From Rhodopseudomonas pseudopalustris (lineage in GTDB: Bacteria; Pseudomonadota; Alphaproteobacteria; Rhizobiales; Xanthobacteraceae), in assembly GCF_900110435.1 (NCBI RefSeq), contig NZ_FODT01000001.1, positions 62,001 to 126,000 of the forward strand: a stretch of DNA of 64,000 nt, read 5' to 3'. Below the pieces are notes generated by a model, which worked only from the letters and a program-made list of their open reading frames with translations, did not search any database and had not been told where the DNA came from. The translations under genes and the position numbers were made by a program. Shown in pieces: positions 8,202-16,812 of the stretch. The first letter of the stretch is position 1; each line of letters starts with the position of its first letter.

Positions 8202-9107
8202 TCAATGCAGCGCGGCAGGGTTTCCGGGCAGCAGCAGGTGGCGCAGCTTGTCGGGATTGCGGACCACGTAGATCGCGACGATGCGGTCGTTTTCGATGGC
8301 GAGCGCGGAGGTCTGGATCAGGCCGTCCGGCTCGGTGGTGACGAAGCCCGGCAGTCCGTCGATCCGCCGGATCGCCACCAGGGCGGAGCCACCGGGGGCA
8401 TATTTGCGGGCGAGCCCTTCGAACAAGCGCGCGACCTTGGCGAGGCCGTAGATCGGGTTCAGCGTCGCCGGGCGCTTGCCGCCGCCGTCGCCGTAGAACA
8501 CCACATCGTCAGCCAGCAACGCGGTCAACGCCTTCAGATCGCCGCTGCGCGAGGCCTCGAAGAACGCGCCGGCGATCGCATGGCCACGTTCTTGCGACAC
8601 CGGAAACCGCGGCCGTTCCGCGCGGACATGGCCACGGGCACGCGCGGCGAGCTGGCGGCAGGCGGCGGCGTCGCGGTCGAGGGTGCGGGCGATCTCGTCG
8701 AAGCCGAGGCCGAACACGTCGTGCAGCAGAAACGCCGCGCGCTCGAGCGGCGACAGCCGCTCCAGCGCGAGCATCAGCGTCAGCGTGATATCGTCGCCGT
8801 CGTCGTCTGGCAGCGCAGTGATCAGCGGCTCGGGCAGCCACGGTCCGACATAGGTTTCGCGCCTGAGCCGCGCCGATTTCAGCACATCGAGACACAGCCT
8901 TGTCACCGTCCGGATGAGGAACCCGCCGGGGTCGCGCACCTGGGCACGATCCGTCCGGTGCCAGCGCAAGTAAGCGTCCTGCACGACATCCTCAGCCTCG
9001 GCGACCGAGCCGAGCATGCGGTACGCGACCCGGACCAGCCGCGCGCGCAGCGGCGCGAAGGTTGCCGCTGCGTCATCGGACGAGCTTTGGTCAGGAGGCC
9101 TTGGCAT
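8202..9107 (-). CDS. ECF41-family RNA polymerase sigma factor (SigJ-like) with SnoaL-like C-terminus
   Basis: 301 residues. Sigma-70 region 2 (VAYRMLGSVAEAEDVVQDAYLRW) and region 4 (about residues 115-165) are followed by a NTF2/SnoaL-like extension. All three signature motifs of the ECF41 group are present: WLPEP at 90-94, DGGGK at 207-211 and NPDKL at 283-287. In this family the extension controls activity in place of an anti-sigma factor, so none is expected nearby. The start overlaps the end of the upstream AhpD-like gene by 17 bases, implying translational coupling. Expression probably comes from the ECF41-type promoter at 9588-9614, which would make the pair self-activating. Confidence 0.93.
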   Translation of the reverse strand: MPRPPDQSSSDDAAATFAPLRARLVRVAYRMLGSVAEAEDVVQDAYLRWHRTDRAQVRDPGGFLIRTVTRLCLDVLKSARLRRETYVGPWLPEPLITALPDDDGDDITLTLMLALERLSPLERAAFLLHDVFGLGFDEIARTLDRDAAACRQLAARARGHVRAERPRFPVSQERGHAIAGAFFEASRSGDLKALTALLADDVVFYGDGGGKRPATLNPIYGLAKVARLFEGLARKYAPGGSALVAIRRIDGLPGFVTTEPDGLIQTSALAIENDRIVAIYVVRNPDKLRHLLLPGNPAALH

Positions 9108-9558
9108 GGGCGGCGGGGGCAGCCGGATGAATCAGCCGGAAGCCGATCGCCAGCCTGTTCCAGATGTTGATCGTGCCGATCAGCAGCGTCAGCTTGACCT
9201 GCTCGGCCTCGGTGAACTGTTGCTTCAGCATCTCGTAGTCCGTGTCGGGCGCGTGGGTCTGCGCGATCAGCGTCAGCGCTTCGGTCCAGGCCAGCGCGGC
9301 GCGTTCGCGATCACTATACACCGGCGACTCCCGCCAGGCATCGAGCAGATACAGCCGCTGCTCGGTCTCGCCATGGGCGCGGGCATCCTTGCTGTGCATG
9401 TCGAGGCAGAACGCGCAGCCGTTGATCTGCGAGGCGCGCATCTTCACCAGTTCGATCAGGCTCGATTCGAGCCCGCTGGCCTTGATGTAGGTCTCCAGCG
9501 CGACCATCGCCTTGTAGGCATCAGGCGCGGCAGCAGTCGGGTTCAGGCGCGGCTTCAT
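9091..9558 (-). CDS. Carboxymuconolactone decarboxylase/AhpD-like protein, ECF41 partner
   Basis: 155 residues from the ATG at 9558, which has AGGAGAG upstream; the open frame continues further up without a better start. The AhpD-type redox motif CAFCLDMH places cysteines at 48 and 51 and His at 55. Such proteins act as peroxidase-like reductants or decarboxylases; the substrate here is unknown. ECF41 sigma genes are characteristically paired with a gene of this class (carboxymuconolactone decarboxylase, oxidoreductase or epimerase), which is the controlled target. The next gene, overlapping it, is the sigma factor. Confidence 0.9.
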   Translation of the reverse strand: MKPRLNPTAAAPDAYKAMVALETYIKASGLESSLIELVKMRASQINGCAFCLDMHSKDARAHGETEQRLYLLDAWRESPVYSDRERAALAWTEALTLIAQTHAPDTDYEMLKQQFTEAEQVKLTLLIGTINIWNRLAIGFRLIHPAAPAAHAKAS

Positions 9559-9587
9559 CGGTCTCTCCTGTGGTTCTCTGACGACAG

Positions 9588-9614
9588 GACGAGACGGCAC
9601 GACGCGATGTGACA
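9588..9614 (-). promoter_or_regulatory. ECF41-type promoter for the AhpD-like/sigma operon
   Basis: Read on the minus strand: TGTCACA (9614 to 9608), then exactly 16 bases, then CGTC (9591 to 9588). As I recall it, the published ECF41 consensus is TGTCACA-N16-CGTC, so this is an exact match. It lies 30 bases before the ATG at 9558. Confidence 0.85.
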
Positions 9615-10330: not shown

Positions 10331-11035
10331 CTACGGCGCCGCGCCCCACGGGCCGGAACGCTTTGGTTCTGCTGGCTTTTCCGGCTGCACGCGAAGATCC
10401 GCCGAAAACCCGAGACCGCGCAGATAGATCAGAACGCCGGCTTCGAGCAGTTCTTCCGCGGCCATTGGCAGCTTGCGGCGCGCGGCGTCGCCGCGGCCGA
10501 ACAGCGAGGCGACGCCGTGCGACATCGACCAGATATGCAGCGCCATCATCAGCGCCGGCGGCCGCGCCACGCCGGACGGGGTCAGCGCCGCGAGCCGTTC
10601 GGCGGCGGCGCGGATGACGTTGAAAGCGCGCTCCGACGCGGTCATCAGCAGCGGATTGACGTCGACCGGAACGCCGGATTCGAACATTGCCGAGTAGTAA
10701 GCGGGCTCGTTGCGGGCGAAAGCGAGATAGGCCGTGCCGACCCGCATGAAAGCGGTGATGGTGTCGGGACGGCCGTCGTCCCAGGCCCTGGCGAGCACCT
10801 GCTCGAACAGCTCGAAGCCGCGTTGGGCGATGTTCGACAGCAATTCGTCGCGATCGCGGAAATGCCGATAGGGCGCGGCCGGGCTGACGCCGGCGACGCG
10901 CGCGGCGTCGGCGAAGGTGAAGCCGGCCGGCCCCTTCTCCGCGATCAGCCCGAGCGCCGCCTGCAGCAACGCCTCTTTCAGATTGCCATGGTGATAGCCG
11001 CGCTCGGCGCGGCGTTCTTCCTTGCGCCAGCTCAT
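10331..11035 (-). CDS. TetR/AcrR family transcriptional regulator
   Basis: 234 residues. The N-terminal helix-turn-helix (about residues 20-65: FTFADAARVAGVSPAAPYRHF) is typical of TetR. The C-terminal half, with AFARNEPAYYSAMFESG and MALHIWSMSHGVASLF, resembles the WHG ligand-binding type. The inducer is unknown. A palindrome shared with the DUF2852 promoter overlaps its start codon, so it probably represses itself and the neighbouring gene. It lies on the same strand as, and 145 bases upstream of, that gene. Confidence 0.93.
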   Translation of the reverse strand: MSWRKEERRAERGYHHGNLKEALLQAALGLIAEKGPAGFTFADAARVAGVSPAAPYRHFRDRDELLSNIAQRGFELFEQVLARAWDDGRPDTITAFMRVGTAYLAFARNEPAYYSAMFESGVPVDVNPLLMTASERAFNVIRAAAERLAALTPSGVARPPALMMALHIWSMSHGVASLFGRGDAARRKLPMAAEELLEAGVLIYLRGLGFSADLRVQPEKPAEPKRSGPWGAAP

Positions 11036-11052
11036 GTGAAGGGCTTTTACAT
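11034..11052. promoter_or_regulatory. TetR operator candidate over the tetR start
   Basis: ATGTGAA-N5-TTTACAT, one mismatch from a perfect palindrome and the same half-site and spacing as 10220-10238. It covers the ATG at 11035, as expected for autorepression. Confidence 0.7.
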
Positions 11053-11219
11053 GAGCAAGGTTGAAAGGTCACGACCTCATCGATCGCGGAGCGAACGATG
11101 TCCCCTCCCCGATCGCCGAAAGGCAGGCCGCAGGCGCCGGCCAGACGGCCGGATTTCCCCCGATTCAGCCTCAAGGCGAAGTTGGGGCGCTTGCGGCAGC
11201 AAATGTGGCATCCCGCGGA

Positions 11220-11247
11220 ACCGAGCGCAGCGCTCACTGCGCTCGGT
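11220..11247. repeat. Perfect 11-bp inverted repeat
   Basis: ACCGAGCGCAG (11220-11230) pairs with CTGCGCTCGGT (11237-11247). It lies 23 bases downstream of the YCII gene stop, but no T-run follows, so it is a weak terminator at best. Confidence 0.5.
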
Positions 11248-11269
11248 CCCGATGCGAAAATCTCCCCGC

Positions 11270-11689
11270 TCAGCCGCGCGCGGCCGACTGCATGGTCTCC
11301 CATCCGGCGAGTTCGCTTTGCACCTCGTCGGAAAAATCGGCGACCTCCTGCACCTGCCGGATTTCGATGACCTCGTTCGGACCGCCCGGGCAGCGCTTGG
11401 CCCAGGCGATCGCCTCGTCGCGTGAGGCGACCTCGATCATCCAGTAGCCGCCGAGCACTTCCTTGACCTCGGCGAACGGGCCGTCGGTCACCAGCGGCTT
11501 GCCGCCGGCGAAGGAGACGCGTGCGCCCATCGAGGGCGGGTGCAGGCCGTCGCAGGTGATCAGCACGCCGGCCTGCTGCAGCGCCTCGTTGTACTTCATC
11601 ATCGCGGCGATCGCGGCGGTGTCTTCGGGCATCGTGCCGGGCGGCGCGCTGTCGTAGCCCTTCGGGATCATCAGCATCATGAATCGCAT
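11270..11689 (-). CDS. YCII/DGPF-domain protein
   Basis: 139 residues from the ATG at 11689 (MRFMMLMIPKGYD), with AGGAGAG upstream; the frame extends further but without a better start. The DGPF signature is present (TDGPFAEVKEVLGGYW). Proteins of this type commonly accompany ECF42 sigma factors; their biochemical role is unknown, and a catalytic role is only inferred. A promoter-like TGTCGGC-N16-CGTC lies 35 bases upstream. The same motif precedes the VOC gene at 16527, so the ECF42-type sigma factor at 14321-15580 is the obvious candidate activator. Confidence 0.88.
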   Translation of the reverse strand: MRFMMLMIPKGYDSAPPGTMPEDTAAIAAMMKYNEALQQAGVLITCDGLHPPSMGARVSFAGGKPLVTDGPFAEVKEVLGGYWMIEVASRDEAIAWAKRCPGGPNEVIEIRQVQEVADFSDEVQSELAGWETMQSAARG

Positions 11690-11723
11690 GATCGGTCTCT
11701 CCTGTTGGATCGTATGCCTGTCT

Positions 11724-11750
11724 GACGAACCGCAGCCTGCCGCGCCGACA
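11724..11750 (-). promoter_or_regulatory. ECF-type promoter upstream of the YCII gene
   Basis: On the minus strand: TGTCGGC (11750 to 11744), 16 bases, CGTC (11727 to 11724). Same architecture as the ECF41 promoter but a different -35. I recall TGTCGA-like -35 and CGA/TC-like -10 boxes for ECF42. It is identical in both boxes and spacing to 16558-16584. Confidence 0.7.
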
Positions 11751-12166
11751 TCGGCTTTGAAATAACCTGCCAGGTCAAACCTGCCGCGCGCGCCGCTCAA
11801 GCGTGTCGCTTCGCGGTCCCGGCGCGCAGCCGCTGGCCCTGGTCGCGTAGTTCCAGCCAAGAATGACGATTGCGCGCGGCGCGACCCGACATCGCGTCGC
11901 ACTGGAAATTCGGAATCACTCGCTTGAGAACGGGCGTAAACGTACCGTTCGCGGCGACAAATTGCCGCCGCATTGATTGACGAACGTTCATGCGTCGATG
12001 TTCGCCGAGTGGGGACTCAACGAAGTTGCGAATATTCGTCGCGGGGCGTTCAGCGTAGCAAATTCGAATCTGCCGGACCGCGCTTCACGCGCGGACAACG
12101 CATGTCGCTGCGATGCGGCTTGCGTCCGGGCTTTGCTGTGCGTCCACGCCGTTTTGGGAGGACGGA
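11751..12166. other. Gene-poor stretch
   Basis: About 415 bases between the YCII promoter and the 33-residue ORF at 12167. The open frames here lack ribosome binding sites and recognisable protein sequence, and I see no clear structure. Confidence 0.5.
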
Positions 12167-12268
12167 ATGGACGAAACAACCAAACTCGCCGCGTCGCGCG
12201 CCATAGCGCATCTGCTCGCAGTCGCGGCCCTGCTGATGATCGCAGGCGTGGTGTTTTATGTGCGGTGA
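12167..12268 (+). CDS. 33-residue single-span membrane peptide
   Basis: The ORF begins MDETTKLAASRAIAHLLA and is followed by a hydrophobic stretch ending FYVR and TGA. GGAGG lies six bases before the ATG. A charged amphipathic N-terminus followed by one membrane helix is typical of bacterial small membrane proteins. No homologue is recalled, and no partner gene is obvious. The call rests on the strong Shine-Dalgarno and the helix, so chance is not excluded. Confidence 0.55.
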   Translation: MDETTKLAASRAIAHLLAVAALLMIAGVVFYVR

Positions 12269-12412
12269 TCGCGTGTTCGCCGCCGTCTCTCTGGGGCCGG
12301 CGCGTGCTGTGCGGCGCTCCCTTCTCAAGGCAGCGCGACCGACCACGCCGATCGGTGGGTTATGCGCTGAGCGCTAACCCACCCAATGAGACGACGGCGT
12401 CAGCTACACAGA

Positions 12413-12589
12413 TCAGCTGTTCGTCGTGACGCTCGGATCGGACTTCAGCTCGTTGTAGGTATCCTGCTCGCCGCGAACTTCCTTCTCGGCTTCCAGCCAG
12501 AATTCGTCGCTCCGGTCTTCAGGATAGCCGGCCAGCTCCCACTTTTCGCGGGCGCGGTGGCGGATACGCTGCTCGAGATCGCTGTCCAT
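12413..12589 (-). CDS. DUF2934 small protein
   Basis: 58 residues from the ATG at 12589 (MDSDLEQRIRHRAREKWELA), with GGAGG nine bases upstream; a longer open frame lacks this support. The pattern of a basic helix followed by GYPEDRSDEFWLEAEKE matches the DUF2934 family, common in Rhizobiales and of unknown function. It is soluble and strongly charged, and stands alone on this strand. Confidence 0.8.
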   Translation of the reverse strand: MDSDLEQRIRHRAREKWELAGYPEDRSDEFWLEAEKEVRGEQDTYNELKSDPSVTTNS

Positions 12590-12872
12590 AATGATCGCCT
12601 CCATCGCAATGCCTGGATGTGTCAGGGGTTGTATTGCATTTCGATGTAATCCTGATGTCAGCAACTGGTTCCTGACAAATTCCTGCGGGCATCGGGCTAC
12701 GGCGCGCGAGCCATTCGAGGCGGCGCGCTCCGATCGTTCCGACAATGCGCTCGGCTGCGACAGGAAATTCTCCGCTGCGCTGTCACAACGCAACCTCTCG
12801 TCATCCGCCATGTGCTAACGGATGCACGAAGCGGATTCGAACCGCGTATTGCACAGTGATGACAGGACAAGC

Positions 12873-13661
12873 ATGACCGCCTCTTCGCCCAAAGTCGCCC
12901 TCGTCACCGGCGCCGCGCGCGGCATCGGTCTCAAAACGGCGCGACGCTTTCTCGACTCCGGCTGGCGCGTTGCGCTGCTCGATCTCGACGATGAGGCGTT
13001 GCGCCAGGCGATCGAGCAGCTTGCGCAGCCGGAGCGGACGCTGGCGCTGCATTGCGACGTCGCCGACACCAACTCGATCGCCAGCGACGTCGCCGCAGTC
13101 GGCAAGCGGTTCGGCCGGCTCGACGCGGTGGTCAACAATGCCGGCGTCGCGGTGTTCAAGCCGCTGATGGAGACGACGCCCGCGGAATGGAATCGGGTGA
13201 TCGAGGTCAATCTGACCGGGCCGTTTCTCGTGATCCAGGCGGCGGTGCCGCTGCTGCGAGACAGCGGCGGCGGCGCGATCGTCAACGTCACGTCGATCTC
13301 GGCATTGCGCGCCTCGACGCTGCGGGCCGCCTACGGCTCCAGCAAGGCCGGGCTCGCGCATCTCACCAAGCAATGCGCGGTCGAACTCGCCTCACTCGGC
13401 ATCCGCGTCAACGGCGTCGCGCCCGGCCCGGTCGAGACCGCAATGGCCAAGGCGGTGCACACGCCGGCGATCCGCGCCGATTATCATGACGCGATTCCGC
13501 TCGGGCGCTACGGCCTCGAGCAGGAACTGGCGGAAGCGATCTACTTTTTGTGCAGCGACCGATCCAGCTACATCACCGGCCAGATCCTGGCCGTCGACGG
13601 CGGCTTCGACGCCGCCGGCATCGGCCTGCCGACACTGCGCGGCGAACGAAGAAACGGATAG
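12873..13661 (+). CDS. SDR-family oxidoreductase
   Basis: 262 residues from the ATG at 12873 (MTASSPKVALVTGAARGIG), with AGGACA upstream; an in-frame start at 12822 gives an atypical N-terminal extension. The NAD(P)-binding TGAARGIG, NNAG, catalytic Ser (in VTSISAL) and YGSSK (the Tyr-x-x-x-Lys pair) are all present, as is the C-terminal SSYITGQILAVDGGF. A classical soluble short-chain dehydrogenase; the substrate is not predictable. It is the only large plus-strand gene in the 8-20 kb block. Confidence 0.93.
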   Translation: MTASSPKVALVTGAARGIGLKTARRFLDSGWRVALLDLDDEALRQAIEQLAQPERTLALHCDVADTNSIASDVAAVGKRFGRLDAVVNNAGVAVFKPLMETTPAEWNRVIEVNLTGPFLVIQAAVPLLRDSGGGAIVNVTSISALRASTLRAAYGSSKAGLAHLTKQCAVELASLGIRVNGVAPGPVETAMAKAVHTPAIRADYHDAIPLGRYGLEQELAEAIYFLCSDRSSYITGQILAVDGGFDAAGIGLPTLRGERRNG

Positions 13662-13689
13662 GGAGTGATCGCAAGCTCAGCGCTCGGCT

Positions 13690-13735
13690 CGCCCTCACCC
13701 CAACCCTCTCCCGCAAGCGGGAGAGGGGGCGCGTT
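13690..13735. repeat. Palindromic intergenic repeat (CTCTCCCGC type)
   Basis: The core 13704-13727 is a perfect palindrome-like hairpin of CCCTCTCCCGC and GCGGGAGAGGG around AA. Copies lie at 16636-16659, 16878-16900, near 22305-22335, 22410-22500 and 23609-23706. It follows the SDR stop codon. Confidence 0.8.
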
Positions 13736-13875
13736 GTGCTTGGGGAGATTCATCGATTTCTTTTGAGCGCTGCTGGTGAGCACCGTTAAAGATGGCGCAC
13801 GATATCGCCCAGCGACGCGGCGGGACTCCCTCTGCCGCTTGCGGGGAGTGCGTTGATGTCACTCGTAGGCAGCCC

Positions 13876-14286
13876 TCAATCCTCCAGCGGGCAGTTCACC
13901 ATCCAGGGGATGCCGAACTGGTCGGTGCACATGCCGAAGCCCTTGGAGAAGAATGTCGCACCGAAGGGCATCGTCACCGTGCCGCCTTCGGACAGCGCCT
14001 TGAAGCGGCGTTCGGCATCGGCGGGGGTTTCCACCAACAGCGACACCGCAAAACCCTGCGGCGTGTGGAAGTGGCCGGGCGGAGCGTCGCCGCCCATCAG
14101 CACTTCGCCGTCGATCGACAGCTTGGCGTGCATCACCTTGGCCTCCTGGCCGGGCGGCAGCGGCGTGCCGGCCGGCGCATCCTTCCAGGTCATCAGCGCC
14201 TCGATCCGCGCGCCGAGCACCTTCTCGTAATATTTGAACGCGGCTTCGCAATTGCCGTCGTAGAACAGATAGGGGTTCACCTGCAT
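13876..14286 (-). CDS. VOC-superfamily (PhnB/glyoxalase-like) protein
   Basis: 136 residues with the beta-alpha-beta-beta-beta layout of the VOC fold. The start is MQVNPYLFYDGNCEAAFKYY, and the end QFGIPWMVNCP is typical of PhnB-like members. No enzymatic activity can be assigned. It starts 34 bases after the ECF42 sigma gene on the same strand and is probably the third gene of that operon; YCII, ECF42 and VOC genes often occur together. Confidence 0.88.
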   Translation of the reverse strand: MQVNPYLFYDGNCEAAFKYYEKVLGARIEALMTWKDAPAGTPLPPGQEAKVMHAKLSIDGEVLMGGDAPPGHFHTPQGFAVSLLVETPADAERRFKALSEGGTVTMPFGATFFSKGFGMCTDQFGIPWMVNCPLED

Positions 14287-14320
14287 CGCGGGCTCCTCGG
14301 TTTGCCGATCGAGTTGTCTA

Positions 14321-15580
14321 TCACGTTCCGATCGCTTCGCTGTCGCGCTTCAGCCGATCGAGATGCATCCGGATGTGCGAAGCCTCGGCGGTGGTGCGGG
14401 CGAGCGCGATGGCGCGTTCGAACGCGATGCGGGCCTCGTCGCGGCAACCCTGTTGCAGCAGCAGAGCGCCCTTGGTGCCGAAATAATGGAAGTAGTTCGA
14501 CAGCCGCTGCTCCAGCGGCGCGATCATCGACAGCGCCGCCGCCGCGCCGCGCACTTTCGACACCGCGACCGCGCGGTTGAGCGTCACCACCGGCGACGGC
14601 TGCAGGATTTCCAGCGAACCGTACAACAGATCGATCTGCACCCAATCGGTGTCCCCGGGCTTTTCGGCCCGCGCATGTAGCGCGGCGATCGCGGCCTGGA
14701 TCTGATACGCCCCGGTGCGGCGATGGCGCATCGCCTTGTCGATCAGCGCCAGACCCTCGGCGATGAATTTTGCGTTCCAGAGGCTGCGGTCCTGATCGTC
14801 GAGCAGCACGATCTCGCCGCCCGGATCGAACCGCGCCGGCGCGCGGGCGTGCTGCAGCAGCATCAGCGCGGTCAGGCCCATGATCTCGGGCTCGGACGGA
14901 AACAGCCGCAGCAGCAGCCGCGCCAGCCGGATCGCTTCCTCGCACAGCGGCGCGCGAAGGCCGGCGGTGTCGCCGGAGGCGGAATAGCCTTCGTTGAACA
15001 GCAGGTAGATCATCGCCGCCACCGCGCCGAGCCGTTCACTGCGCTCCGGCGCGCCCGGCGTCTCGAACGGCACGCTCGCGCGGGCGACCCTGGCTTTGGC
15101 GCGGGTGATGCGCTGCTCCATCGCCGCATCCGAGACGAGAAACGCGCGCGCGATCTGCGCCACGGTCAGGCCGCTGACGATGCGCAGCGCCAGCGCGATC
15201 TGCTGGGTCGGCGGCAATTCGGGATGGCAGCAGATGAACAGCAGCCGCAGGATGTCGTCGCGATAATGCGAGCCGTCGAGCCGCTCGGCGAGCGCGTCCT
15301 CGGCGTCGTCGAGATCGGAGATCGTGTCGTCGTCGGGCAGCGGCTGCAGCTTCCTGCCGCGTCGGATGTCGTCGATCGCGACGTTGCGGCCGACCATGAT
15401 CAGCCACGCCGCCGGATCGCGCGGCGGACCATTCTGCGGCCACGCTTTCAGGGCGCGCAGGCAGGCGTTCTGAAACGCCTCCTCGGCGGTGTCGAGGTTG
15501 CGGAAATAGCGCAGCAACGCGCCGATCGCCTGGGGACGCGCCGCGGTGATCGCGGTTTCGATCCAGGCGAGATCGGTCAT
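14321..15580 (-). CDS. ECF42-type RNA polymerase sigma factor (DUF6596)
   Basis: 419 residues from the ATG at 15580. Sigma region 2 (LLRYFRNLDTAEEAFQNACLRAL) and region 4 (ALRIVSGLTVAQIARAFLVSDAAMEQRI) are followed by a roughly 230-residue helical extension, with AAMIYLLFNEGYSAS and ARIAFERAIALARTTAE like TPR repeats. This architecture defines the ECF42 group. The start overlaps the stop of the upstream YCII gene as ATGA, so the two are translationally coupled. A VOC gene follows. No anti-sigma gene is present, as usual for this group. I do not see its target-type promoter upstream of this operon. Confidence 0.93.
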   Translation of the reverse strand: MTDLAWIETAITAARPQAIGALLRYFRNLDTAEEAFQNACLRALKAWPQNGPPRDPAAWLIMVGRNVAIDDIRRGRKLQPLPDDDTISDLDDAEDALAERLDGSHYRDDILRLLFICCHPELPPTQQIALALRIVSGLTVAQIARAFLVSDAAMEQRITRAKARVARASVPFETPGAPERSERLGAVAAMIYLLFNEGYSASGDTAGLRAPLCEEAIRLARLLLRLFPSEPEIMGLTALMLLQHARAPARFDPGGEIVLLDDQDRSLWNAKFIAEGLALIDKAMRHRRTGAYQIQAAIAALHARAEKPGDTDWVQIDLLYGSLEILQPSPVVTLNRAVAVSKVRGAAAALSMIAPLEQRLSNYFHYFGTKGALLLQQGCRDEARIAFERAIALARTTAEASHIRMHLDRLKRDSEAIGT

Positions 15581-15948
15581 GGCTGCAGTGTCCCCGGCAT
15601 GAACAGGCCGATCGGGCGGATCTCGTAGGACCCGCCCGGATTGGCGCGGCCGAGGTCGCGGGCGACCTCGAGCGCGCCGTCGAGATCGGCGCATTCGACG
15701 ACGTAGAAACCGAGCAACTGTTCCTTGGTCTCGGCGAACGGCCCGTCGATCACCACCGGCGGCTCGGAATCTTTGCGCAGCGTGGTCGCCGCCGTGGTCG
15801 GCAGCAGCCGCGCCACCGGCCCGAGCCGGCCTTGCTCCGCGAGTTTGCCGTGGACGAGCTTGAGCTTCTCCATCACCGCGGCGTCTTCCTCGCGGCTCCA
15901 CGAACCGACGAAATCCTCGTCATGATAGCAAAGGATGGCGTAGAGCAT
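15577..15948 (-). CDS. YCII/DGPF-domain protein, ECF42 operon
   Basis: 123 residues from the ATG at 15948 (MLYAILCYHDEDFVGSWS), with GGGAG upstream. The signature IDGPFAETKEQLLGFYV is present. Proteins with this DGPF motif are the hallmark partners of ECF42 sigma factors and are thought to be their targets; no reaction is known. The stop overlaps the sigma start by four bases. Confidence 0.92.
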   Translation of the reverse strand: MLYAILCYHDEDFVGSWSREEDAAVMEKLKLVHGKLAEQGRLGPVARLLPTTAATTLRKDSEPPVVIDGPFAETKEQLLGFYVVECADLDGALEVARDLGRANPGGSYEIRPIGLFMPGTLQP

Positions 15949-16101
15949 GTGGAACGGATCTCCCTGGCTGCGCGGCATTGGTCGCCGCGCTTGCGCGCTA
16001 CCATGCCGGACAATCCTGCGGCGACCAAGTCGGGTGACGGGAACCGGCGCGACACGTTCCAGCGCATCGCGCCTGCCCGTTGGCTCGCAAGGCGGAAGCT
16101 G

Positions 16102-16527
16102 TCAGCTCGCCGCCGGCAGCGGATGGGCGAAGCTCCAGCTATGCCCGAACGGATCGACGATGCGGGCGTAGCGCGCGCCCCAGAACGCATCCCACGGCTC
16201 CATCGGCACAATGGCGCCGGCCGCTTTTGCCCGCGCCACCGCGGCGTCGCAATCCGTCACTTCGAGATGCATCGTGACCGCGGTGCCCTTCAGCTCGTTC
16301 GGCGGCATATACGCCTCGCCGCCATGCTGGGCGCGATATTCGGGGAAATAGTCGACCACGAAAATCCGCGCGCCGTCGATCTGGATCTCGGCATGGAGCA
16401 GCCGCTTGCCGTCCTCGGCCGGCATCCGCACCGCCTCGCTGGCGCCGAGCGCCTGCTTGTAGAATTCGATGGCCGCACCGGCGTCGCTGACGACGAGATG
16501 CGGAATGACGGTCTGCGGGGCGGTCAT
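16102..16527 (-). CDS. VOC-superfamily (glyoxalase-like) protein
   Basis: 141 residues. The start is MTAPQTVIPHLVVSDAGAAI, and EVTDCDAAVARAKAAGA and IVDPFGHSW are typical of PhnB/YdeI-like VOC members. The ATG at 16527 has CCAGGAGACTCCC before it. A TGTCGGC-N16-CGTC promoter lies 31 bases upstream, the same as for the YCII gene at 11689, which ties this gene to an ECF sigma regulon. The substrate is unknown. Confidence 0.88.
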   Translation of the reverse strand: MTAPQTVIPHLVVSDAGAAIEFYKQALGASEAVRMPAEDGKRLLHAEIQIDGARIFVVDYFPEYRAQHGGEAYMPPNELKGTAVTMHLEVTDCDAAVARAKAAGAIVPMEPWDAFWGARYARIVDPFGHSWSFAHPLPAAS

Positions 16528-16557
16528 GGGAGTCTCCTGGCTGATGAGCCTCCGCAG

Positions 16558-16584
16558 GACGAACGGAGCGCGGCGCTGCCGACA
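16558..16584 (-). promoter_or_regulatory. ECF-type promoter upstream of the VOC gene
   Basis: On the minus strand: TGTCGGC (16584 to 16578), 16 bases, CGTC (16561 to 16558). Identical boxes and spacing to 11724-11750. Confidence 0.7.
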
Positions 16585-16635
16585 GCGGTCGCGGCTTTTT
16601 TCTGCCGGACCCGAATTCCTTGCGCACGGCCTGCC

Positions 16636-16659
16636 CCCTCTCCCGCTTGCGGGAGAGGG
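16636..16659. repeat. Palindromic repeat (CTCTCCCGC type)
   Basis: CCCTCTCCCGC-TT-GCGGGAGAGGG, same family as 13704-13727. It opens a gene-free stretch to 16995 that holds only repeats. Confidence 0.8.
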
Positions 16660-16706
16660 TTGGGGGTAAGGGCGAGCCGGGCAGTGAGTTGGTGATCTGC
16701 CGGACC

Positions 16707-16812
16707 TAGAGCTTTTCCGGTTCTGATAGAATCAGAACCGGAGCTCTAACTTTTTGTTCTGACGCGTTTTCTTCACGCGAACCGGTTTCCACTTCGCTCG
16801 AAAACGCTCTAA
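16707..16812. repeat. About 105-bp interspersed repeat, copy 1
   Basis: It starts near TAGAGC with an inverted GGTTCTGAT/ATCAGAACC, continues through GACGCGTTTTCTTCACGCG and ends at TTCGCTCGAAAACGCTCTAA. Diverged copies lie at 58469-58571 and 62855-62956. It has no coding capacity. Confidence 0.75.

Follow-up and report, generated by a model that had tools for sequence, protein, structure and literature searches.

The window examined here is a stretch of 64,000 nucleotides from Rhodopseudomonas pseudopalustris (contig NZ_FODT01000001.1, positions 62,001 to 126,000, forward strand), and its features of interest are two promoter-like sites together with the extracytoplasmic function (ECF) sigma factor of the ECF42 type encoded between them. 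The genes and sites are as follows, with protein families assigned by Pfam.

11270..11689, minus strand: YCII1, a YCII/DGPF protein of 139 aa (PF03795)
11724..11750, minus strand: predicted ECF42-type promoter before YCII1 (sequence match; conserved before YCII1 orthologues)
13876..14286, minus strand: VOC2, a YjdN/PhnB-like VOC protein, 34 bp after the sigma gene (PF00903 and PF06983)
14321..15580, minus strand: ECF42-type sigma factor of 419 aa, with sigma2, sigma4, DUF6596 and a long C-terminal extension
15577..15948, minus strand: YCII2, a YCII/DGPF protein of 123 aa, with a 4-bp overlap with the sigma start (PF03795)
16102..16527, minus strand: VOC1, a glyoxalase-fold protein of 141 aa (PF00903)
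16558..16584, minus strand: predicted ECF42-type promoter before VOC1, most likely that of VOC1-YCII2-sigma(-VOC2) (sequence match; heads the sigma operon in relatives)

A gap of 153 bp separates VOC1 from YCII2-sigma-VOC2, which follows it on the same strand. The match of VOC2 to NCBIfam NF007537 falls below the cut-off of that model.

The sigma factor carries Sigma70_r2 (residues 12-76) and Sigma70_r4_2 (residues 114-164), thus sigma2 and sigma4 only, followed by a C-terminal extension that takes up the remainder of the 419 residues beyond 164 and includes DUF6596 (183-284), in agreement with the roughly 200 residues expected of an ECF42 factor. This protein gives the sole DUF6596 match in the 5.27-Mb genome (E <= 0.001), and a Pfam search alone, at E 0.001, returned no tetratricopeptide repeat (TPR) family in the extension. 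The DGPF string is visible in both YCII1 and YCII2, the latter supplying the adjacent YCII/DGPF gene of an ECF42 system; the promoter form of the group, TGTCGGN-N16-CGTC, is also present and is the same as that of the Sinorhizobium meliloti RpoE10 promoters. Pfam and the sequence therefore bear out the first-pass annotation, made from the letters alone, in placing an ECF42-type sigma factor with another YCII and VOC gene between the two sites. No anti-sigma family appears among the Pfam matches of the nine proteins around and including the sigma factor, with small open reading frames (ORFs) partly covered. According to excerpts of PMC8999054, control of ECF42 factors resides in their own C-terminal extension, which probably acts by contacting other proteins, the YCII protein perhaps among them.

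Upstream of YCII1, TGTCGGC-GCGGCAGGCTGCGGTT-CGTC occupies 11724-11750 (minus strand), 34 bp from the ATG at 11689; upstream of VOC1, TGTCGGC-AGCGCCGCGCTCCGTT-CGTC occupies 16558-16584 (minus strand), 30 bp from the ATG at 16527. Both sites share GTT directly before CGTC. The identical TGTCGGC-N16-CGTC motifs that had been proposed before the YCII and VOC genes are present letter for letter, and the distance of about 31-35 bases claimed for them is close to that measured; calling the two genes distant is misleading, as VOC1 adjoins the sigma operon. The sequence evidence supports the designation of the sites as ECF-type promoters, and both can be identified with considerable confidence as ECF42 promoters, presumably read by the sigma factor encoded at 14321-15580. 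This sigma factor would recognize a -35 element TGTCGG and a -10 element GWTCGTC at fixed spacing, and the site at 11724-11750 would drive YCII1.

The frequency of the motif in G+C-rich DNA bears directly on this assignment. TGTCGGC-N14-18-CGTC occurs five times in the window versus 0.81 expected, a number reached in 1 of 100 shuffles. The pattern TGTCGG-N17-CGTC, when one mismatch is allowed, is at chance level there (9 versus 10.05 expected). The genome scan suggested by the first-pass annotation, for TGTCGGC-N15-17-CGTC, returned 85 matches versus 39 for the reversed control; the short pattern proved unspecific, with the exact N16 form in just 11. This loose counting was rejected as a test of enrichment, the matches lying mainly in coding DNA; ten of the 11 exact N16 sites fall within an open frame by a crude ORF filter, including the YCII1 site, which is counted there because the YCII1 frame extends upstream of its ATG. 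For TGTCGG-N17-CGTC, 30 matches were found genome-wide versus 10 for the control, 22 of them within an open frame by the same filter, but in three of these (the DUF899, YCII1 and 11865-11891 sites) the frame is merely an upstream extension of the target's own ORF. Four of the 30 are promoter-like, lying 30-49 bp before a recognizable gene, namely VOC1, YCII1, a DUF899 gene (contig C9) and a DUF1428 gene (contig C8), and a fifth is located 70 bp ahead of an ABC-transporter gene (L167). Taken by itself, the motif gives weak evidence, and the case therefore rests on position, the longer consensus and conservation. Chance resemblance as the source of the motif pair can be given almost no credence: the short pattern is common, as the scan shows, but the fixed spacing, the similar start-codon distance, the conservation across species and the identity with S. 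meliloti promoters all speak against it.

Two further matches in the window were considered. The third exact N16 site, 13608-13634 (minus strand), was rejected, lying antisense within a short-chain dehydrogenase/reductase (SDR) gene and having no G[AT]T before CGTC. The other has the form TGTCGGG-N16-CGTC:

11865..11891, minus strand: possible second, upstream copy of the motif, intergenic, 141 bp upstream of the YCII1 promoter

Elsewhere in the genome (handle G000), TGTCGGGGCGCAGCTCTGGGGTTCGTC is present in two identical copies, G000:C12:118193-118219 and G000:C14:239795-239821, perhaps part of a repeated element; the crude ORF filter found no gene start just downstream of either copy.

Conservation was assessed in 16 genomes of the genus, of which 11 carry a close ECF42 factor (86-100% identity), one a distant factor (47%) and four remote sigma-factor matches only. 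Sites were scored as matches out of 13 positions, with a threshold of 11/13 at N16. A site at or above the threshold is found 31-37 bp before YCII1 in 8 of 10 close orthologues, a count that leaves out the diverged copies of G002 and G015, the second YCII gene of G010 and the YCII2 genes themselves. Among the genomes without ECF42, three contain YCII1-like genes (43-44%), none of which has a site of at least 11/13 within 250 bp. In G010, a further YCII paralogue (L122, G010:C19:44190-44546) is located just upstream of YCII1, with its own TGTCGGA-N16-CGTC 59 bp before the start.

Two sites outside the window extend the set of candidate targets.

G000:C9:474332-474358: ECF42-type site 32 bp before a DUF899 gene (L103, L074), outside the window; conserved
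G000:C8:88165-88191: ECF42-type site 49 bp before a DUF1428 gene (L164), outside the window; conserved

The DUF899 site recurs at 32-35 bp in all seven close orthologues, leaving out one partial, distant match in G010; this gene provides no control, because the five genomes without a close ECF42 factor hold no DUF899 match. The DUF1428 site is present in six of seven ECF42 genomes, the seventh (G011) reading CGTCGG for TGTCGG. DUF899 and DUF1428 are accordingly listed as two more predicted ECF42 targets elsewhere in the genome. The local regulon proposed at first is thus upheld as a shared regulon that includes both window genes, on the sequence evidence, but not as a purely local one, the DUF899 and DUF1428 sites lying on other contigs.

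The alignment of 34 sites from the four target types yields the consensus TGTCGG-N14-GWTCGTC, with G[AT]T before CGTC largely conserved; the list omits the DUF1428 site of G003 and the sites of the extra YCII genes. The seventh base of the motif as originally written, C, is not conserved (12 of 34 sites), and the steadier parts are the GG of TGTCGG and the G[AT]T before CGTC. Across the genus genomes, TGTCGG-N15-TTCGTC gives 42 matches versus 4 reversed, and TGTCGG-N14-GATCGTC gives 22 versus none, with 6 of these 64 exact matches in the five genomes that lack a close ECF42 factor.

Beyond the genus, 80 named relatives, the best of 342 found, were compared, mostly Bradyrhizobium with some Tardiphaga, Rhodopseudomonas and unclassified kin; four of these loci (L196, L220, L224 and L261) were judged to belong to genomes of the genus counted above. 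In 70 of the 80, the 160 bp before YCII2 hold a site of at least 11/13 with N16, compared with 136 of 14,972 random 160-bp windows and none of 80 reverse complements. Six of the other ten loci have a 10/13 site, and L224 shows the VOC1 arrangement, in which the site precedes VOC1 instead. Together the 80 loci span 960,616 bases, in which TGTCGGN-Nx-CGTC was counted 170 times at x=16; all other values of x from 8 to 24 gave counts of 0-36. An open frame starts 15-75 bp downstream of 154 of the 170 N16 sites, and these frames fall into ten clusters: YCII2 (55), DoxX-like (34), SRPBCC (22), another YCII (15), RibD_C (14), GST (4), VOC (4), SnoaL (4 and 1) and one frame overlapping YCII2 out of register. 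Cluster names derive from one example each by Pfam, except for YCII2 and the out-of-register frame.

Homologues also occur on plasmids (58 records), eight of which were scanned. A TGTCGG-type site precedes a YCII gene on the Phyllobacterium, Sinorhizobium sp. M103 and Shinella plasmids; related sites precede a YciI gene on a Roseibium plasmid (TGTCGCA) and a Nostoc plasmid (TGTCGAT-N16-CGAC), and a short ORF on the S. sojae plasmid (TGTCGAA). Mesorhizobium sp. INR15 carries TGTCGTA-N16-CGTC ahead of the VOC gene of a VOC-YciI-sigma run that includes a 20-bp gap. The single Streptomyces plasmid locus scanned yielded no TGTCG-type site.

Several observations weigh against reading the sites as ECF42 promoters. 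YCII1 retains just a 9/13 remnant in G014 and has no site near its start in G008, where the nearest 13/13 site is 259 bp upstream. G003, which has no close ECF42 factor, carries TGTCGGC-N16-CGTC 38 bp before DUF1428, and the genome with the distant ECF42 factor (G015) has just TGTCGTT-N16-CGAC, 42 bp before its YCII gene. The 34 sites were picked by resemblance, so their conservation is overstated. Among the relatives, L231 has by eye only a degenerate CGTCGGC-N16-CGTT before YCII2, and L221 and L232 have no recognizable site within 160 bp before YCII2. In the same YCII2 test, the threshold is also reached at spacings of 12, 19 and 20 in 36, 16 and 16 loci, respectively, which is tentatively attributed to repeated CGTT/CGTC strings in related sequences, and most of the counts, being drawn from related species, lack independence.

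A regulator other than a sigma factor could also be envisaged, the motif being the operator of a DNA-binding protein such as that of the TetR gene at 10331-11035, which lies directly downstream of YCII1. This option deserves next to no weight, since the site is non-palindromic, consists of two blocks with promoter-like spacing, is consistently positioned ahead of start codons and agrees with S. meliloti promoters whose transcription starts have been mapped (excerpts of PMC6180224). A second sigma factor belongs to an ECF41 system (8202-9614, minus strand), located about 1.7 kb downstream of YCII1 and in the same orientation.

8202..9107, minus strand: ECF41-type sigma factor with a SnoaL_2 C-terminal domain (Pfam)
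9091..9558, minus strand: carboxymuconolactone decarboxylase family (CMD) gene of the ECF41 pair, upstream of the sigma gene (Pfam PF02627)
9588..9614, minus strand: ECF41-type promoter TGTCACA-N16-CGTC, 29 bp before CMD; the only exact match in the window

The sigma factor at 8202-9107 shows the ECF41 hallmarks of a SnoaL_2 domain, an upstream CMD gene and TGTCACA-N16-CGTC, and it scores 313.9 bits against TIGR02957, below the cut-off of 323.25. Of 11 genus stretches examined, seven hold CMD, and the TGTCACA motif lies just upstream of it in all seven. The S. meliloti ECF41 factor RpoE9 has a promoter that reads the same, with TGTCACA at -35, N16 and CGTC at -10, and a CMD target (excerpts of PMC6180224). 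It is very unlikely that this neighbouring factor, instead of the ECF42 factor, reads the YCII1 and VOC1 sites. The ECF41 factor's own site at 9588-9614 does have the same spacing and the same CGTC, but the -35 triplets are consistently distinct, with ACA in 7 of 7 CMD stretches and GG in 34 of 34 ECF42-type sites (picked by resemblance), a difference that makes the ECF41 factor an improbable reader; in S. meliloti, RpoE9 acted on the first of these promoter types and RpoE10 on the second (excerpts of PMC6180224).

Because VOC1 immediately precedes the sigma operon in the same orientation, 16558-16584 is most likely the operon promoter. The first-pass annotation had found no motif before the sigma operon and concluded that its control differs; this conclusion does not survive, as the motif heads VOC1-YCII2-sigma. 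A site is found at the sigma-operon head in all 11 genus genomes with a close ECF42 factor, directly before YCII2 in seven and before VOC1 in four, the latter being the genome of the window, G008, G011 and G014. A close VOC1 orthologue (at least 78% identity) is present in 4 of the 16 genus genomes, always directly upstream of YCII2, and three further genomes give VOC1 matches of just 31-35%. The site at 16558-16584 would thus drive VOC1 and then YCII2, sigma and VOC2 by transcription through the 153-bp gap, and this read-through would close a positive feedback loop. Co-transcription of VOC1 with the sigma gene is suggested by the gene order; read-through of the gap with feedback onto the sigma gene appears reasonably probable.

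A different course is conceivable, in which the sites are ECF42 promoters but VOC1 forms its own unit, YCII2-sigma being driven by another promoter in the 153-bp gap without autoregulation, in line with the view of the first-pass annotation. This arrangement is rather unlikely, although it has points in its favour: the YCII2 site is decayed in the window's own genome, 153 bp is long for a gap within an operon, and across the four VOC1 genomes the VOC1-YCII2 gap measures 144-174 bp, leaving room for a separate promoter. In S. meliloti, moreover, TGTCGGC-N16-CGTC overlaps the putative start of the YCII gene SMc01151, and overexpressing RpoE10 did not increase expression of the YCII-rpoE10 operon, so that no autoregulation was seen despite the motif (excerpts of PMC6180224). 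The gap weighs against read-through, as does the S. meliloti result. Against a separate unit, a search of 11000-16800 for sigma-70-like promoters gave none, though such a test is weak for this organism, and no terminator-like hairpin is listed on the minus strand in the region. Each of the four genomes without a YCII2 site has a good site in front of the preceding gene, in the same orientation, none of the 11 is without both, and in Mesorhizobium sp. INR15 the site likewise stands before the VOC gene of the run.

The loss of the YCII2 site accompanies the presence of VOC1, and a relic can be recognized in the window.

15974..16000, minus strand: decayed relic of the former YCII2 promoter, with TAGCGCG at -35 and TGCC at -10 (alignment with 8 relatives)

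All seven genomes without VOC1 have an intact YCII2 site. In the four VOC1 genomes, the TGTC of the -35 element reads TGGC, TGGC, TGCC and TAGC within surrounding sequence that is kept in the alignment; the third base of TGTCGG is thus lost in 4 of 4 and kept in 5 of 5 aligned genomes without VOC1. The -10 CGTC of the relic is kept in three VOC1 genomes and lost in the window's own. A promoter hand-over, in which VOC1 arrived just upstream of the sigma operon with an ECF42 promoter of its own and the operon promoter then lost its -35 element while the loop was kept, is a scenario for which the chances seem evenly balanced. On the sigma-gene tree, the four VOC1 genomes do not form one clade; the fewest changes in VOC1 presence are three, two of them forced by well-supported branches, and a single VOC1 origin is therefore not supported. 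As many as 170 of 500 shuffles do as well, with few branches well resolved. The hand-over may have occurred more than once, or once with later losses.

The sites are very probably promoters of an already known kind, and their significance lies in extending the mapped ECF42 promoter to Rhodopseudomonas and its Bradyrhizobium relatives with a tighter consensus. The predicted regulon comprises YCII, VOC, DUF899 and DUF1428 genes and, in Bradyrhizobium and kin, also DoxX-like, SRPBCC, RibD_C, GST and SnoaL genes, a defined target set that could serve as reporters for finding the ECF42 signal. The ECF41/ECF42 neighbour pair, whose sites in the window are alike in spacing and CGTC but have different -35 triplets, offers a natural case for how related sigma factors avoid cross-talk, and the decayed YCII2 promoter a readable case of regulatory rewiring. 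In the literature searched, with subscription papers mostly outside it, no ECF42 regulon was found to have been described for Rhodopseudomonas or Bradyrhizobium.

Among known systems, a YCII gene also immediately precedes the gene of RpoE10, an ECF42 factor of S. meliloti; excerpts of PMC6180224 are the source of all comparisons with it, spacer lengths having been counted in the present analysis from the published sequences. Transcription starts were mapped there downstream of TGTCGGC-N16-CGTC (SMc01149) and TGTCGGA-N16-CGTC (SMb20475), both operons being raised at least 2-fold on RpoE10 overexpression; the link between this motif and YCII or glyoxalase-like genes was therefore already published for a related bacterium. 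The two systems share TGTCGGN-N16-CGTC, a YCII gene immediately preceding that of the sigma factor, and glyoxalase-like targets both near to it and far from it, whereas the present one differs in having VOC1 between the promoter and YCII2, and a second YCII gene, DUF899 and DUF1428 as predicted targets. The ECF42 factors of Streptomyces venezuelae (Liu et al. 2018, via excerpts of PMC8999054) are alike in their C-terminal extension and in a YCII gene in the neighbourhood, and the present sigma factor is 40-44% identical to Streptomyces plasmid homologues among the matches listed. Pseudomonas putida ECF-10, also of ECF42, is alike in group and gene context, as described in excerpts of PMC8999054 and PMC6180224.

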